A stretch of 44,242 bases of DNA from a virus. The DNA is taken from positions 1 through 44,242 of IMG/VR virus record IMGVR_UViG_3300048912_000251; one strand, written 5' to 3'. A program made the translations under genes and the position numbers. The notes beneath the pieces were generated by a model. The model did no database searches and was not told where the DNA came from. It worked only from the letters and a program-made list of their open reading frames with translations. This document shows positions 2,706-32,349 of this stretch, piece by piece (the first letter of the stretch is position 1; every line of letters starts with the position of its first letter).

Positions 2706-3100
2706 TGGGGCGCCGGACCAGTGCTGCCCGCAGCATCCCCGGCAACCCTCTGGGGGGTGTGTTGCGTGCGACGCAGCGCAGCGCCCGGACCGCGACGCGG
2801 CGCATCGCACCCGTTGCAGGTCCGTCACAGAGCGCGTCACCTGCTGCGACACCTGTCCCTGACCTGTCGTTTCCGCTTGCGACGGTGCTGGCTGCCGACA
2901 CTACGGGGGTGGTGTGGTGGCAGTTCCCCGTCTCGCTTCCCGCAACGCCGGTCGTCACCGCCACGGTGGTCGCGTCGCAGCCGCACACCGTCACAGTGCG
3001 GGTCGCGACACCCCATGCTGTCGCGCTGCATGTCTGGGACACCCGGGGCCGTCCAGCCCCGGGTCTGGCCGTCCACATCCTTGCCTTCCCCAACGCCTAG
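2705..3100 (+). CDS. Small tail-tip protein, function unknown
   Basis: A 131-aa protein whose ATG shares one base with the upstream TGA (GTG at 2702 is an alternative start). The first 40 residues are basic and Arg/Ser/Ala-rich. The rest alternates short beta-strand-like stretches (VVTATVVASQ, TVTVRVATP), suggesting a small beta-sandwich as in tail accessory proteins. It ends just before a late promoter motif at 3097. I do not recognise a family; its position within the tail-tip operon suggests a structural role. Confidence 0.6.
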   Translation: MGRRTSAARSIPGNPLGGVLRATQRSARTATRRIAPVAGPSQSASPAATPVPDLSFPLATVLAADTTGVVWWQFPVSLPATPVVTATVVASQPHTVTVRVATPHAVALHVWDTRGRPAPGLAVHILAFPNA

Positions 3101-3104
3101 ACTG
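3097..3104 (+). promoter_or_regulatory. Late-type -10 motif CTAGACTG
   Basis: This is the second of four identical CTAGACTG octamers, placed over the stop of the upstream gene and about 30 nt before the next start. The hexamer TAGACT matches the actinobacterial -10 consensus. No TTGNNN box is found 17 nt upstream. Confidence 0.5.
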
Positions 3105-3134
3105 GCTCGGGTACAGGCTTCCCGACAGAAAGGG

Positions 3135-3866
3135 GTGAGTCCGATCGCACGCGTTTGTGTTTCCAGCGATGTGTTCGACATTTTGCCGACCGGCGAACTG
3201 ACCATCAAGCGAACCGCCCTCGGGCTGCGCCAGCTCGTCGCGTTCACCAACCCGGGGTCCTTCACCTTCACGAAGTCCAGCTACCCCGGCCTCACCCGGC
3301 TGCGCGTCCGCGTCATCGGCGGCGGCGGTGGTGGCGGCGGGACCGCCGGTGTCGGGTCCGGCGGTAGCACCTGCTCGGCCGGGGGCGGGGGTGGGGGCTA
3401 CAGCGAGTCGGTCCTCGACGCCGCCTCACTGGCCGCCAGCGTCCCCATCACCGTCGGCGCGGGCGGTGCCGGTGGCGTGGGCGGTGCGGCCGGTGCCAGC
3501 GGCGGTGCGTCGTCCTTCGGAACCGTGACCGCCAACGGCGGCCAGGGTTCACCACAAGCTGGCAACAACTCGGCCACCGGTAGCACGGTGGCGTTCGGCG
3601 GCTACGGCGCACCGGTCGGCAGCGGCCAGATCGCTGTTCCAGGCGGCGGGTCGTCCAGTGGGTTCGCTCTCAGCAACTTCGTCTCGGTGGCGGGCGGCGG
3701 CGGCGACGCCAGCGGCGGCTACGGCCCCGGCGGCGCACCCGCCGGACCGGCCAACGGCGGCGGCTACGGCGGCGGCGGGTGCGGTACCGCGACAGTCAAC
3801 GGCGGCGGATCGGCCAACGGCGGCAACGGCGCGGGCGGCGCCGTGCTGCTTGAGCTCTTCTTCTAA
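3135..3866 (+). CDS. Glycine-rich minor tail / receptor-binding protein
   Basis: A 243-aa protein with a GTG start behind AGAAAGG (tight spacing). Residues 1 to about 65 form a globular N-terminus with aromatic beta segments (FTFTKSSYPGL). From about residue 70 onward it is dominated by Gly runs and GGxG repeats, ending in the hydrophobic LLELFF. Glycine-rich domains of this kind occur in phage adhesins and tail-tip proteins, where polyglycine-II bundles expose variable receptor-binding loops. It follows its own late promoter motif. The receptor-binding role is inferred from architecture and position. Confidence 0.6.
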   Translation: MSPIARVCVSSDVFDILPTGELTIKRTALGLRQLVAFTNPGSFTFTKSSYPGLTRLRVRVIGGGGGGGGTAGVGSGGSTCSAGGGGGGYSESVLDAASLAASVPITVGAGGAGGVGGAAGASGGASSFGTVTANGGQGSPQAGNNSATGSTVAFGGYGAPVGSGQIAVPGGGSSSGFALSNFVSVAGGGGDASGGYGPGGAPAGPANGGGYGGGGCGTATVNGGGSANGGNGAGGAVLLELFF

Positions 3867-7109: not shown

Positions 7110-7412
7110 TCAGTACCTCTCGATGTCGGTGGGCTCGCCACGGGTGGCGATTCCCAGATTCCAGTGGCAGCAGCCGGTGTGTCCGGCAACGGCGTTGCAG
7201 CGGACGCGAATGAAACGGTCGCACCCCTGATCGTCCGTGACCACCTTGAGCACCTTCCACGGACAGCGGTCACAGACGCCGTAGGCATACATACCGATGC
7301 AGAACCGAGGGCGGCGGCAACCCCCGTAGCACCCTTCTTCGATGCAACCGTCACAGTCGGGGCAGCGGCCTTCCGCCCGACGGTACGCCCGGCCCTGTTT
7401 CGAGCACAGCAC
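7110..7412 (-). CDS. Small cysteine-rich protein
   Basis: A 100-aa protein from GTG behind GGAAGGAC. It has at least twelve cysteines, including CPDCDGC, CYGGC, CDRC and CC, enough for two or more zinc sites. The start lies 3 nt after the upstream stop and the gene ends 3 nt before the downstream start, showing translational coupling. Probably a nucleic-acid or protein-binding zinc protein; no function assigned. Confidence 0.55.
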   Translation of the reverse strand: MLCSKQGRAYRRAEGRCPDCDGCIEEGCYGGCRRPRFCIGMYAYGVCDRCPWKVLKVVTDDQGCDRFIRVRCNAVAGHTGCCHWNLGIATRGEPTDIERY

Positions 7413-7414
7413 GG

Positions 7415-7660
7415 TCAGTCCTTCCGGTCGATGATCTCGAAGTGGCCGATGTCCCCGTAGGCCATGGCGAGCGCCACCAGGTGCGGCAGCGTCTCGGCGC
7501 CCATGAGCCTGCGCAGCTTCTTCTGCACCTCATAGACCTGGTAGATGGTCAAACCCCGCTTCTTCCCGCTCTGCGCCGCCGTCAGACCCCGTGCGGCGTC
7601 CAGCACGAGGCCCCGTTCCGACGCGGTCAGCGGCCGGGGGCGGAACTGTTCGGTGCTCAT
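7415..7660 (-). CDS. LuxR-type HTH DNA-binding protein
   Basis: An 81-aa protein consisting almost only of a LuxR/GerE-like helix-turn-helix: LTASERGLVLDAARG at residues 10-24 matches the LTxREREVLxLxAxG helix, and LTIYQVYEVQKKLRRLMG followed by LPHLVALAMAYG matches the recognition helix and the final helix. No receiver or ligand domain is present. ATG at 7660, overlapping the upstream stop by 4 nt. A likely transcriptional regulator produced early, in the same operon as WhiB. Confidence 0.65.
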   Translation of the reverse strand: MSTEQFRPRPLTASERGLVLDAARGLTAAQSGKKRGLTIYQVYEVQKKLRRLMGAETLPHLVALAMAYGDIGHFEIIDRKD

Positions 7661-9633: not shown

Positions 9634-9697
9634 ACACTACATCTAGGGAACGACAAATGCAACACCCCTGGCGGAAGAAGTCATTCCGCCAGGGGTG
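9634..9697 (-). promoter_or_regulatory. Terminator-promoter cassette
   Basis: The hairpin 9663-9697 (14-bp stem CACCCCTGGCGGAA with TTCCGCCAGGGGTG) directly abuts a promoter: -35 TTGCAT at 9657-9662, spacer 17 nt, -10 TAGTGT at 9634-9639 (minus strand). The leader that follows carries the shared element CTTTCTGTCAGCAGG. The cassette separates the 9711-10646 gene from the 9589 gene. Confidence 0.8.
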
Positions 9698-9710
9698 CAG
9701 GTGGTGCGGG

Positions 9711-10646
9711 TCACATGTCCCGGGCGCAGCGTAGGACGTTGTACCACTCGGGCTCGGTGAGGAAGATCCATTCCCCGCCGGTCACCGTGCTGGCCAGGGC
9801 CGGGGTGCTGGCATCCGTCGCCCCCAGCGCGTAGGCCAGCAGCAGCCGGGCCGACTGGTTGAGGCAGTGCACCCGGAATTCCCAGGCGGGCTTCACCGGC
9901 GCGTACTCGGCCACGAAGGCGGCCACGTTCACCGCGATGCTGCCGAACGTCGTGAGGCTGGCCAGCGCCTTGTAGTTCGCGTGCTTCAGGTCCGCCTTGG
10001 CACCGTAGGCCTTGTAGTCGACCAGCGCGGCTACGTGCTCGTCGCGGCCGACCACGGCGAAGTCGATGTCGAGGCACGGCACCCGTTGCGAGAACGGCAC
10101 CGAGACGGCCGGTTCCCAGTTCCGGCGGCGCGTGCTCAGGTTCTGGCCCGGCCACTTCTCGAACTCGGCGGCCGGAAGGGTCATGGTGTGCGGCCGGAAG
10201 TCGTCCAGCCATCGGACGCCGTACGGCGACAGGTCTGGCAGCTCGCGGCCGCGCATCCGGTACAGCACCTCGGCGAAGGTCCGCTCGGTCACCTTCGACC
10301 AGTGCGGCGCGACGCTCTGCTGGCCCAGCAGCGCCTGCGCGGCGTCGTTGTGGGGAAACAGCTCGAACGACCACGTAGCCGCGTCGTAGCGGGCCGTCAG
10401 GAACGGCAGCGTGTCCCAGGCCCCGAGGTCGCCGAGACGGCCGAAGGCGCGGTACGCGGCGCCGACCTCGGGGCCGCGTGGCTTCTCGCTGCCGACCGGG
10501 CCGTAGCTGACGATGCCGACTGCCTTGCCACGGTCGTACTCGATCATGGGAAGCGTCATCCCGGCAGCCGGTGCCTCGAAGCCGTTCAGCCGGTGCCGCT
10601 CGGCCAGCAGGGTGTCCCGCCAGCCGCTGTCAGTCCTGCGGGCCAT
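9711..10646 (-). CDS. PD-(D/E)XK-like nuclease candidate
   Basis: A 311-aa protein from ATG 10646. Near residues 193-212 the pattern CLDIDFAVV ... ALVDYKAYG fits the PD-(D/E)XK core (D, then DxK after a beta strand), the metal-binding fold of many phage and restriction nucleases. The N-terminal half is unassigned. The C-terminus ends in an aromatic LTEPEWYNVLRCARDM segment. It overlaps its upstream neighbour and ends before the strong terminator at 9663. An alternative is a structural or accessory protein with a chance motif; other catalytic residues are not clear. Confidence 0.5.
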   Translation of the reverse strand: MARRTDSGWRDTLLAERHRLNGFEAPAAGMTLPMIEYDRGKAVGIVSYGPVGSEKPRGPEVGAAYRAFGRLGDLGAWDTLPFLTARYDAATWSFELFPHNDAAQALLGQQSVAPHWSKVTERTFAEVLYRMRGRELPDLSPYGVRWLDDFRPHTMTLPAAEFEKWPGQNLSTRRRNWEPAVSVPFSQRVPCLDIDFAVVGRDEHVAALVDYKAYGAKADLKHANYKALASLTTFGSIAVNVAAFVAEYAPVKPAWEFRVHCLNQSARLLLAYALGATDASTPALASTVTGGEWIFLTEPEWYNVLRCARDM

Positions 10647-10788: not shown

Positions 10789-10984
10789 TGCCGTCCACCA
10801 CCTTCGCCAGTTCCAGCAGCACGTCCACGGCGTCGATGGCCCGTACGGCTGCGTCGTTGTAGGGGCAGTCGAACCCGTACACAACGAGCGGGCACTCGGC
10901 GTCGTGGACCGCCATCACCTTGGTGATCCGGTCGCGGGTGGCCCGTAGTTCCTCGGGCGTCTGGGGTGTGTCGAATTCGCTCAC
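10781..10984 (-). CDS. Unknown 67-aa protein
   Basis: GTG at 10984 forms a GTGA overlap with the preceding gene. Mostly helical with one CPLVVYGFDCPY segment; acidic overall. Part of a four-gene coupled set (11193 to 9711) transcribed through from the tRNA-like array. Confidence 0.5.
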   Translation of the reverse strand: MSEFDTPQTPEELRATRDRITKVMAVHDAECPLVVYGFDCPYNDAAVRAIDAVDVLLELAKVVDGSE

Positions 10985-11193
10985 AGCGCACCATCCACGA
11001 TCCCGGACGCCTGCTGCTGGCGCAGAGCTGACAGGCACAGGGCCCGCCACATCGAGTTCGCGGTGCTGCACAGTGCGGGCTGGCAGTCATCGCACCCGGT
11101 GACGTGCTGGTCGAACTGCTGGCGCCGGTGCGCCACGGCCGGATACGGGCTGTCGGCCCGAACGTCCAGGCGGCGCCCTTCGATGATGGCCAT
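10981..11193 (-). CDS. Unknown small cysteine-containing protein
   Basis: A 70-aa protein from ATG 11193 behind CGGAAGGGAAGCAGC, the same leader sequence as that of the SSB-like gene at 12336. It has CDDCQPALC and an HRRQQFDQH segment, so a His/Cys metal site (as in anti-sigma-like zinc modules) is possible. It is the first gene after the tRNA-like array and is presumably cotranscribed with it. Confidence 0.55.
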   Translation of the reverse strand: MAIIEGRRLDVRADSPYPAVAHRRQQFDQHVTGCDDCQPALCSTANSMWRALCLSALRQQQASGIVDGAL

Positions 11194-11223: not shown

Positions 11224-11292
11224 CGGCCACGGCGCGGCCGCACGGAATCCAACCGTGCGCCGGGCCTTCGCGGGGCAACCGCGCCGTGGCCG
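11224..11292 (-). ncRNA. tRNA-like element A (minimal: acceptor plus T-arm)
   Basis: Outer 14-bp perfect stem (11224-11237 with 11279-11292). Next to its 3' strand is a 7-bp hairpin with a 7-nt loop TTGGATT (11239-11259), placed as a T-arm would be. Only about 20 nt remain between, too few for a D-arm plus a normal anticodon arm; a GCC/GGC mini-hairpin is possible. Manual fold. Confidence 0.4.
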
Positions 11293-11414
11293 GGAAGCGG
11301 GCGGGATTCGAACCCGCGAGGTACACCGATGGCGTGCAGGCTGAGCGCTCAGCGCATGCCCTCGGTTCCTACCGGATCGCGTCCGGCACCTTGGGCCGCT
11401 CGGTCACCGCTTCC
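11293..11414 (-). ncRNA. tRNA-like element B, Ser/Sec-type with giant variable arm
   Basis: An 8-bp acceptor (GGAAGCGG/CCGCTTCC) stacks on a perfect T-arm GCGGG-TTCGAAT-CCCGC. The D-region reads GTGACCGAGCGGCCCAAGG, very close to bacterial tRNA-Ser. The anticodon arm is abnormal: CCGGA/TCCGG with a 5-nt loop CGCGA, or a 7-nt loop ACGCGAT lacking U33. The variable arm is about 50 nt, a long hairpin ending CTGAGC/GCTCAG, far longer than the usual 10-25 nt. About 122 nt in total. Probably not a conventional translating tRNA. Confidence 0.55.
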
Positions 11415-11416
11415 AG

Positions 11417-11488
11417 AGCCCCCGGCAGGAATCGAACCTGCCACGCGCTGCTTACGAAGCAGCCGCTCTGCCACTGAGCTACGGGGGC
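11417..11488 (-). tRNA. tRNA-Thr (CGT)
   Basis: A canonical 72-nt cloverleaf: acceptor GCCCCCG/CGGGGGC, D-arm GCTC-AGTGGCA-GAGC, anticodon arm GCTGC-TTCGTAA-GCAGC with U33 and anticodon CGU, and T-arm GCAGG-TTCGATT-CCTGC. CCA is not encoded. It decodes ACG, a common threonine codon in high-GC genes. It is the only fully standard member of the array. Confidence 0.9.
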
Positions 11489-11492
11489 TCGC

Positions 11493-11582
11493 GGAAGCCA
11501 CGGCACCGACCCACGGGACTCGAACCCGTCGCCTCGCAGTTCGTGCTCGGACGCTTTACCTGCGGTCGGCGCCGTGGCTTCC
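11493..11582 (-). ncRNA. tRNA-like element D with 19-bp extended acceptor helix
   Basis: Ends pair over 19 bp (11493-11511 with 11564-11582, one G-U). A standard T-arm ACGGG-TTCGAGT-CCCGT follows. The interior can form a short D-like arm CGC-AGGTAAA-GCG and an anticodon-like arm CCGAGC-ACGAACT-GCGAGG containing tandem G-A mismatches, with C instead of U at position 33. A normal tRNA acceptor is 7 bp. Confidence 0.5.
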
Positions 11583-11584
11583 AG

Positions 11585-11653
11585 TGGGACCGGCAGGATT
11601 CGAACCTGCCACCGGGCGCTGATCAGGTCGCCCATCGCACACCGTGCGGTCCC
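11585..11653 (-). ncRNA. tRNA-like element E, short D-region and wide anticodon loop
   Basis: 69 nt with a perfect 7-bp acceptor GGGACCG/CGGTCCC, discriminator A and perfect T-arm GCAGG-TTCGAAT-CCTGC. The D-region has only a 3-nt-loop hairpin (GCAC-GGT-GTGC). The anticodon stem GGGCG/CGCCC closes a 10-nt loop ACCTGATCAG rather than 7 nt. Confidence 0.5.
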
Positions 11654-11657
11654 TCGG

Positions 11658-11740
11658 GGAAGGCACCGCCGGGCGTAGTCGGCCCGGCACTTCCCCCCGA
11701 CGGGTGGGGGCGCTCGACCTTTCGGCGGGCGGTGCCTTCC
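11658..11740 (-). ncRNA. tRNA-like element F, cloverleaf with atypical T-loop
   Basis: 13-bp outer stem (11658-11670 with 11728-11740). The D-like arm is CGC-CGAAAGGTCGA-GCG. The anticodon-like arm is CCCCC-ACCCGTC-GGGGG (7-nt loop, C at position 33). The T-like arm GCCGGGC-CGACTAC-GCCCGGC lacks the TTCRA consensus. The overall geometry is tRNA-like but the conserved tRNA nucleotides are missing. Confidence 0.45.
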
Positions 11741-11742
11741 AG

Positions 11743-11822
11743 CTTCCACACCGGGATTCGAACCCGGATCATTCCGACCGGGGGCTACCCGTCGGCCGCT
11801 CTGCCAGTTGAGCTACATGGAA
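11743..11822 (-). ncRNA. tRNA-like element G, blocked anticodon loop
   Basis: 80 nt. Acceptor TTCCATG/TGTGGAA (two wobbles), canonical D-arm GCTC-AACTGGCA-GAGC and T-arm CCGGG-TTCGAAT-CCCGG. The anticodon stem starts GCCGA/TCGG as in tRNA-Asn, but the loop is 12-14 nt and can fold on itself (GGG/CCC), hiding any anticodon; no standard U33-NNN loop is visible. It is the most 5' element on the transcript. Confidence 0.5.
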
Positions 11823-11868
11823 TCGGGTGCCGCGCCACCCGGGGGACGGGGCGGCGCGGCGGCTCGTG

Positions 11869-12336
11869 CTAGACGGCCCAGGGGTCGTCCTTCTTGTCGT
11901 CGCTGCTGTCGGTCGCGGCCGCGACGGCGCGACCCGCGAGGTAGTCCCGGGCGAGCTGCTTCTGCGCCTCGGACGGCTCGTGCAGTTCGATTGCGTAGTT
12001 GCCCTTGATCTTCTCGGCACTCTGGCCGATGACGGCCAGGTACTTGCGGCCGACACGTCGCTTCAGCGCGCCGATCGGCTTCCCGTTGAAGATCATGACG
12101 TCCTCGAAGACCTCGGGGCCGCCGTCGGCGTCCAGGACCACCAGGTCCGTGATGATGACGTCCTTGCGGCCGTAGTCGGTGGTCATGATCCCGCCGCCGA
12201 TCACGTTCCCGGCAGCGTCCTTTTCCAGCCCCACGTACTCGGTGGGCGAGAAGAGGACCGTCCTGCCCAGGATCTCGGCCAGCTTGACCTGGGCACCGGA
12301 ACCGGCACTGTCGAACTCGTCGCGCTGCGTCGCCAT
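11869..12336 (-). CDS. Putative single-stranded DNA-binding protein
   Basis: A 155-aa protein from ATG 12336 behind CCGAAGGGAAG. The central 100 residues alternate beta strands (KDVIITDLVVLDADG, KYLAVIGQSA) as in an OB fold. The C-terminus DSSDDKKDDPWAV is an acidic tail ending in an aromatic/hydrophobic tip, like the SSB tail that recruits replication proteins. It lies upstream of the tRNA-like array and downstream of recombination-type genes, behind promoter 12533. The SSB call is inferred from fold pattern and tail. Confidence 0.5.
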   Translation of the reverse strand: MATQRDEFDSAGSGAQVKLAEILGRTVLFSPTEYVGLEKDAAGNVIGGGIMTTDYGRKDVIITDLVVLDADGGPEVFEDVMIFNGKPIGALKRRVGRKYLAVIGQSAEKIKGNYAIELHEPSEAQKQLARDYLAGRAVAAATDSSDDKKDDPWAV

Positions 12337-12532: not shown

Positions 12533-12561
12533 ATTCTGCTACATCTGGGCTTCCGTGTCAA
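12533..12561 (-). promoter_or_regulatory. Sigma-70-type promoter for SSB and tRNA-like array
   Basis: Minus-strand -35 TTGACA (12556-12561), 17-nt spacer, -10 CAGAAT (12533-12538). It overlaps the 3' end of the 12558-12836 gene. Confidence 0.65.
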
Positions 12562-31969: not shown

Positions 31970-31977
31970 CTAGACTG
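31970..31977 (+). promoter_or_regulatory. CTAGACTG motif in early region
   Basis: Identical to the late motif before tail genes, but here followed by a terminator and small early genes. Confidence 0.35.
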
Positions 31978-32007
31978 GGTTGCACCCCCACGGCCGGTAG
32001 GCCACAC

Positions 32008-32074
32008 CACCCCACCAGCGCGGTTACGCCGTTGCTGGTGGGGTGTTGCATTTCTCGGGGGCGAAGCGTACAGT
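32008..32074 (+). promoter_or_regulatory. Terminator-promoter cassette
   Basis: 12-bp hairpin CACCCCACCAGC/GCTGGTGGGGTG (32008-32045), -35 TTGCAT (32046-32051), 17-nt spacer, -10 TACAGT (32069-32074). Confidence 0.8.
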
Positions 32075-32109
32075 CTTCCTTGTAAGCAACCGCGAGGAAG
32101 GAAACGACC

Positions 32110-32349
32110 ATGAAGATCCAGCGCCTGGTGTGGAAGTCCGAGACCTTCGGCCCGTCCGAGCCCCACATCGTGGTCGAGGTCGGCAACGGAAGCTTCGGGG
32201 TGTGGGCGGCACAGTTCACCGGCGACGGACGGGCCACCGGCAGTGCCCGCCCGGTCGGTGCGGGATGCCGTCTCACCGAGGCCGAGGCGCTGGCCGGTGC
32301 GAAGCTGGCCAACACCAACGCCCGGCGCGTCGGCGTCGACCGATACTGA
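32110..32349 (+). CDS. Unknown 79-aa accessory protein
   Basis: ATG 32110 behind CGAGGAAGGAAACGACC. Beta-rich first half (IVVEVGNGSFGVWAAQF), helical end with LTEAEALAGAKLAN. First of seven small accessory genes in a row. No family recognised. Confidence 0.55.
   Translation: MKIQRLVWKSETFGPSEPHIVVEVGNGSFGVWAAQFTGDGRATGSARPVGAGCRLTEAEALAGAKLANTNARRVGVDRY

Follow-up and report, generated by a model that had tools for sequence, protein, structure and literature searches.

The window, meaning the whole stretch of 44,242 nucleotides that was analysed, is a virus record from IMG/VR and has relatives in the Streptomyces phage genus Woodruffvirus, with a nuclease that is 51–64% identical. On its minus strand, an array of tRNA-like units and a strong hairpin sit between two genes, P0001 and P0002 (Table 1). 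P0001 had been labelled as SSB-like from the sequence alone, a name that finds no support: family and structure searches lead to a family without assigned function, Pfam gave no match and the PDB nothing convincing. The 32-nt leaders before P0002 (11189–11220) and before P0001 (12332–12363) are 88% identical, so the two genes have a common ribosome-binding leader. A consensus scan found a promoter-like site 5' of P0001 and none between P0001 and P0002; co-transcription of the array with the upstream gene is plausible on this sequence evidence. The hairpin is a possible mRNA 3' end or terminator.

Table 1. Features of the array and its surroundings in the window
Feature	Position	Strand	Description
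Promoter-like site	12533..12561	-	TTGACA-17-CAGAAT, 5' of P0001; consensus match only
P0001, upstream gene	11869..12336	-	phrog_870
Strong hairpin	11825..11868	-	Between P0001 stop codon and array; at the same place in relatives
Unit G	11742..11822	-	tRNA-like; canonical D and T arms; 8-bp anticodon stem over 5-nt loop
Unit F	11658..11740	-	Long-acceptor tRNA-like; 12–13-bp closing helix GGAAGGCACCGCC/GGCGGTGCCTTCC; inverted repeat I2
Unit E	11584..11653	-	Perfect 7-bp acceptor and T-arm; without normal anticodon loop
Unit D	11493..11582	-	Acceptor and perfect T-arm within 19-nt helix; without anticodon arm
Unit C	11416..11488	-	Canonical tRNA-Thr(CGT); ARAGORN and Rfam
Unit B	11292..11414	-	Class II-like; D-arm GACCGAGCGGCCCAAGGT; perfect acceptor and T-arm
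Unit A	11224..11292	-	Closing helix of ~14 bp and T-arm hairpin; without anticodon arm; inverted repeat I4
P0002, downstream gene	10981..11193	-	phrog_36691; syntenic in most relatives

Structure of the seven-unit array

The sequence-only reading had described seven consecutive structured units filling 600 nt with gaps of 0–4 nt, and their positions were borne out, on the minus strand; the order of transcription is G, F, E, D, C, B, A. The single canonical tRNA that it claimed was recovered with both programs named in Table 1, and a 7-nt anticodon loop with U33 on a 5-bp stem is present in unit C only, being missing from A, B, D, E, F and G. A 7-bp acceptor with a T-arm carrying a TTCRANY loop is found in B, C, D, E and G. 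The scan and the folds thus agree with the earlier description of B, D, E and G as perfect T-arms and acceptors joined to abnormal anticodon arms, and also with its remark that A and F lack some consensus nucleotides. Unit A has the T-loop TTGGATT, one change from consensus, and unit F has a T-arm-like hairpin without the consensus loop and a 7-nt loop, ACCCGTC, without U33. The anticodon loop of G counts as 12 nt when only the canonical 5 bp are considered, the anticodon arm of E has a 10-nt loop or an alternative fold, B combines the 5-nt loop CGCGA with a long variable-arm hairpin, and the helix of D is an inverted repeat (I1) of 19 nt that is 95% complementary.

Every exact GGTTCGANTCC T-loop in the window, five in number, lies inside the array, and a scan for a T-arm with a 7-bp acceptor gave five matches, all in the array, compared with 0.03–0.2 per Markov-shuffled window. 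The folding energies are unusual for D (z of -6.1), A (-4.2), F (-3.8) and E (-3.1), weakly so for B (-2.1) and not for G (-0.9), so the case for G rests on homology. ARAGORN calls this last unit a 'tRNA-Ala', and it scores 44 bits against the Rfam tRNA model in a focused search, being absent from the whole-window gathering list. Rfam matches to Plastid-ycf2, YrlA, mascRNA and tRNA-Sec in the array fell below gathering scores and were put down to chance or T-arm similarity.

Strong inverted repeats and a terminator-like hairpin 5' of an array might also be expected of palindromes that act on DNA or transcription and merely resemble tRNA, such as terminators, recombination sites, att remnants or an origin; halovirus HF2 has a separate tRNA-like attP (PMC8707807). 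We regard this explanation as very improbable, since a plain hairpin does not need the conserved T-loop TTCGANT, the complete acceptors pair over 30–90 nt in several copies, and no integrase was found among the proteins searched around the array. Seven units with complete acceptors count against a tRNA-derived attP, and an att site or an origin is probably not what the array represents. The idea that the units are decoys for anticodon nucleases fares poorly as well: apart from the tRNA-Thr, every unit has either lost its anticodon loop or rebuilt it, and it is on this discarded part that such nucleases act, which disfavours decoys of that kind.

The same gap in related phages

Relatives were gathered with nuclease, primase and P0001 alignments; P0001 as a single query gave no match against viral contigs, and its family none against bacterial genomes. 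The gene order P0001, strong hairpin, variable RNA and P0002 is preserved in most of these relatives. Decoding-dead tRNA-like units occupy the gap in phages Xkcd426, phiSAJS1, YDN12, Geonosis and Abt2graduatex2, whose GenBank records annotate no tRNA there, and also in L014, L015, L017, L018, L023 and L045. The content of the gap shifts fast from one relative to another. Xkcd426, phiSAJS1, L017, L018 and L023 have one orthologous unit each, that of Xkcd426 and of phiSAJS1 lying on the minus strand; YDN12, Geonosis and Abt2graduatex2 have a unit bearing two T-arm-like hairpins; and L015 has one unit with a 5-nt loop and one longer unit. In L014 there is an ortholog of unit E (7389–7455) with an anticodon loop of 4 nt, and an extra unit with a 12-bp acceptor helix that is the counterpart of F, with a different helix sequence. 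The tRNA-Thr(CGT) is present in the gap of L012–L014 as the sole intact tRNA, and a tRNA-Thr(CGT) is annotated in phage TG1. In Maih, TP1604 and Mischief19 the gap contains nothing but plain hairpins, hence the elements are dispensable there. Relatives of B, D, E, F and G with intact anticodon loops, which the sequence-only reading had named as the mark of random pseudogenes, were looked for and none was found.

The gap of L038 holds a different structured RNA (~1720–1940), which shares a conserved core with one in the gap of Geonosis (L051, ~3070–3190). Their closing stems are unrelated in sequence yet complementary in both cases (GAGAGCAGCGTCCG/CGGACGCTGCTCTC versus CAACAGGCG/CGCCTGTTG), and neither RNA matched Rfam. 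In a distant phage contig, L063, a tRNA-like unit at 9650–9715 has a GGAA tetraloop where the anticodon loop would be and sits just 5' of a normal tRNA-Lys(CTT).

Five orthologs, picked by position and D-arm similarity, independently of the non-canonical helix, retain the acceptor, the D-arm (GCTC/GAGC), the T-arm, C32 and a CCCG/CGGG anticodon stem, while the loop is replaced and the helix runs on for several pairs past a bulged C. A normal tRNA of contig L050 shares this stem (CCCCG-CTTGCAA-CGGGG) and by sequence is likely to represent their ancestral form. An intron inserted in a normal loop was considered and rejected: the extended orthologs have no U33 after C32, so removal of the insert restores no loop. 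Across the five orthologs 98.3% of cells are paired, and changes on both sides occur at 7 pairs, compared with 2.2 in shuffled and 0–2 in slid alignments; three of these seven pairs lie in the non-canonical helix. For Xkcd426 alone, the fold of the anticodon insert is not better than shuffled sequence (0.13; the others 0–0.06). R1, a covariance model made from the five orthologs only and containing no unit of the window, was searched against 413 kb and matched units C (E-value 1.7e-6), G (6e-5) and E (1.3e-4) of the window. In a set of 12 units that includes those of the window, the acceptor and T-stem show 9 double-change pairs (5.1 shuffled) and 33 double-change cells (9.4 shuffled) with 98.6% paired; some rows of this set come from a pairing-based scan, which biases the paired percentage upward and the variety of pair types less so.

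The covariation across related phages that the sequence-only reading had asked for is therefore present in both sets, and its main argument, that units which lose the anticodon loop yet keep acceptor and T-arm are not simply decaying, holds in that the pattern recurs in most relatives and covaries. The units of the window are not random pseudogenes of one phage. A relic origin, in which a former tRNA cluster erodes after losing its role in codon supply while its GC-rich helices decay slowly, would account for an intact tRNA-Thr adjoining defective units, for the quick turnover of units and for relatives that have none. Covariation has already weakened this reading, which we consider improbable: compensatory changes are seen in the acceptor, in the T-stem and even in the non-canonical helix, and the T-loop and C74 stay conserved in units that have almost always lost the anticodon loop. 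The covarying extension of the anticodon helix suggests that it has a role or a folding constraint of its own, beyond what RNase P alone would impose.

Minihelices beyond the genus

Shorter elements of ~41 nt, formed by an acceptor and a T-arm only, were found in intergenic positions in phages of Gordonia, Mycobacterium, Corynebacterium and Streptomyces and in haloviruses; this spread over several host genera also counts against relics. Several occur in a metagenomic phage contig (G009, primase 50% identical), each lying after a stop codon and before the ribosome-binding site that follows, and contig G007 has three larger elements, intergenic too. TG1 and Trine had been chosen as negative controls and proved to carry elements; of the other controls, TPA2 has none and Phlyer gave one match, a unit without a tRNA-like 3' end. 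BLAST with one Trine element retrieved unannotated copies in MakoManhole, Cafasso, Aleemily, ObLaDi, Morgana, VanLee, Indlulamithi, SWU2 and StAB, as well as in haloviruses HHTV-2 and HF1/HF2. Where both flanking genes are annotated, the minihelices lie between co-oriented genes (TG1, MakoManhole, Cafasso, Morgana, VanLee, SWU2, Indlulamithi, HHTV-2, HF2 and G009), often 10–25 nt past the stop and ~10–45 nt ahead of the next start. The exception is Trine, in which three copies overlap the annotated gp40. Minihelix copies are located in L105 (Trine) at 31977–32249 on the minus strand, and in L112, L113, L116–L120, L055, L114 and L115; gp40 spans 31440–32243 of L105, and its start has probably been called too far upstream.

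Twelve members from actinobacterial phages, most of them found through sequence similarity and not through pairing, have the linker AYGGTCGYA in common, and 7 of their 11 pairs covary, with 26 cells compared with 7.7 when shuffled. No Rfam family matched the minihelices. The family model R2 (acceptor, ATGGTCGYA-type linker and T-arm, ~41 nt) finds HHTV-2 (5e-6) and HF2 (0.001), neither of which was in its training set, and gives a few strong matches in 297 actinobacterial genomes. Its chromosomal matches are in L121, L122 (two copies) and L123–L128; judged by eye, some adjoin genes that resemble those of integrative elements, and the two loci inspected look like the surroundings of mobile elements. 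R2 has no match in the window's own units, so that the link between array and minihelices consists in a common module and placement and is not proven descent. Judged by sequence, the minihelices may be analogous or distant to the array, whose units would be larger relatives or analogues. The primase search of bacterial genomes led to a single remote locus, in Micromonospora, around which no element was found; that genome served as host tRNA control. A C after the discriminator is present in nearly all units and in 34 of 34 tRNAs checked in an actinobacterial genome.

The elements might also be stable decoy or regulatory RNAs, i.e., processed tRNA mimics that accumulate and occupy host factors whose recognition is limited to the acceptor and T-arm; tRNA nucleotidyltransferase, RNase P or RNase Z, modification enzymes and acceptor-end defence toxins are candidate targets. 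We think that this is rather unlikely. It would explain why the acceptor, T-arm and C74 are kept and why the extended anticodon helix is itself selected, seven copies would increase the dose, and other structured RNAs occupy the same gap in L038 and Geonosis. However, single short minihelices set tightly between genes in many phages look cis-acting, no target is known, and the loss of the anticodon loop counts against anticodon nucleases as targets. A role in RNA processing fits the intergenic minihelices of many phages better than decoys do.

A possible role in transcript processing

The elements have dropped the decoding arm, and the minihelices lack the D-arm too, while the acceptor, the T-arm and the C are kept in nearly every element. 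The explanation that we favour, at somewhat less than even confidence, is that the array is made of tRNA-derived processing elements that punctuate the transcript and whose anticodons have been disabled to keep them out of translation. The units would owe their retention to the acceptor and T-arm module, with decoding playing no part. Transcribed along with the phage genes on either side, they would fold like tRNA precursors and be recognised by the host enzymes that mature tRNA ends: RNase P would cut on the 5' side, and RNase Z or an exonuclease would form the 3' end beyond the discriminator. RNase Z recognises the same acceptor/T-arm module as RNase P. Excision would yield two separate mRNAs, the upstream one still carrying the strong hairpin at its 3' end, and the shortening, extension or removal of the anticodon arm would leave the excised RNAs unable to act in translation; the tRNA-Thr(CGT) would stay an ordinary tRNA. 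For RNase P, an enzyme that also cuts phage and polycistronic RNAs, a hairpin made of the acceptor stem, the T-stem and the T-loop suffices as a model substrate (PMC11143913). The retained module is the one present in that model hairpin, which makes transcript processing between genes the best-supported reading. The position where RNase P would be expected to cut shows no consensus. Moreover, punctuation requires one element and not seven, and processing alone does not explain the size of the array.

Plant mitochondrial t-elements are tRNA-like structures at mRNA ends that are recognised by tRNA-end processing enzymes, with no requirement for decoding. By analogy, the array would work in the way of t-elements, with which it has in common a tRNA-like structure at an mRNA boundary, and it is offered as a candidate and not as a member of the class. 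Its elements lie, apart from the Trine copies, at mRNA boundaries between co-oriented genes, as a processing element of this type should, and their covariation indicates a structure under selection without a requirement for decoding. The array differs in its phage and operon context, in its tandem arrangement with an intact tRNA and in that its cleavage is one that we infer. More tentatively still, we propose that anticodon-free tRNA elements form a widespread, unannotated class in actinobacterial phages and some haloarchaeal viruses, used as operon-punctuating cut sites that recruit host tRNA-maturation enzymes and ranging from full cloverleaves with rebuilt anticodon arms to 41-nt minihelices, with the seven-unit array as the extreme case.

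Why phages carry tRNA genes is an old question, and the answers so far have been codon supply or evasion of host tRNases. Here the shape of a tRNA persists without its decoding function, at one intergenic position in a phage genus and, in smaller versions, in phages of several host genera and in haloviruses. This suggests that the shape serves a purpose outside translation, which would most likely be to let the host's tRNA-trimming enzymes cut phage messages apart. Should the elements prove to be processing sites, RNase P and RNase Z would be tools with which phages cut mRNA in general, and the annotation of phage tRNAs would overlook a functional RNA class.

In the openly searchable literature, neither acceptor/T-arm minihelices in phage intergenic gaps nor such an array was found; older work on phage RNAs and haloviruses may mention such elements. 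The minimal module is identical to that of the RNase P model substrates, which are synthetic, whereas here it is a repeated natural intergenic element; the M3 and C4 RNAs of phages are also cut by RNase P, but they are other RNAs (PMC11143913). Actinophage tRNAs with changes in the anticodon loop evade host tRNases (PMC10264068); those changes are small and the tRNAs still decode, whereas the loops considered here, also altered and also from an actinophage setting, are lost or rebuilt. The pseudo-tRNA tRNA-Other of Bacillus cereus is a tRNA-like structure inside a longer transcript and outside translation (PMC3399842), but it still has a Trp anticodon, borders a genomic island and forms no array. 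For HF1-group viruses, the accessible parts of two reports describe conserved tRNA-like sequences without known function and a probable processing of long transcripts (PMC7230728, PMC8707807); the sequences described in those parts are near-full tRNAs or attP, with no mention of minihelices. In cluster K mycobacteriophages, the SAS and ESAS, a 13-bp sequence and 17-bp repeats, are repeated just upstream of start codons (PMC3203893). They resemble our elements in being repeated near phage gene starts, with inverted repeats in the case of ESAS, but are described without a T-loop or an acceptor. As a minor observation, the leader that follows elements of contig G009, CCAGATAGGGGAACACC or CCAGATAGGGGAACACCATG (L055, 2048–2110 and 2423–2490), resembles the SAS.
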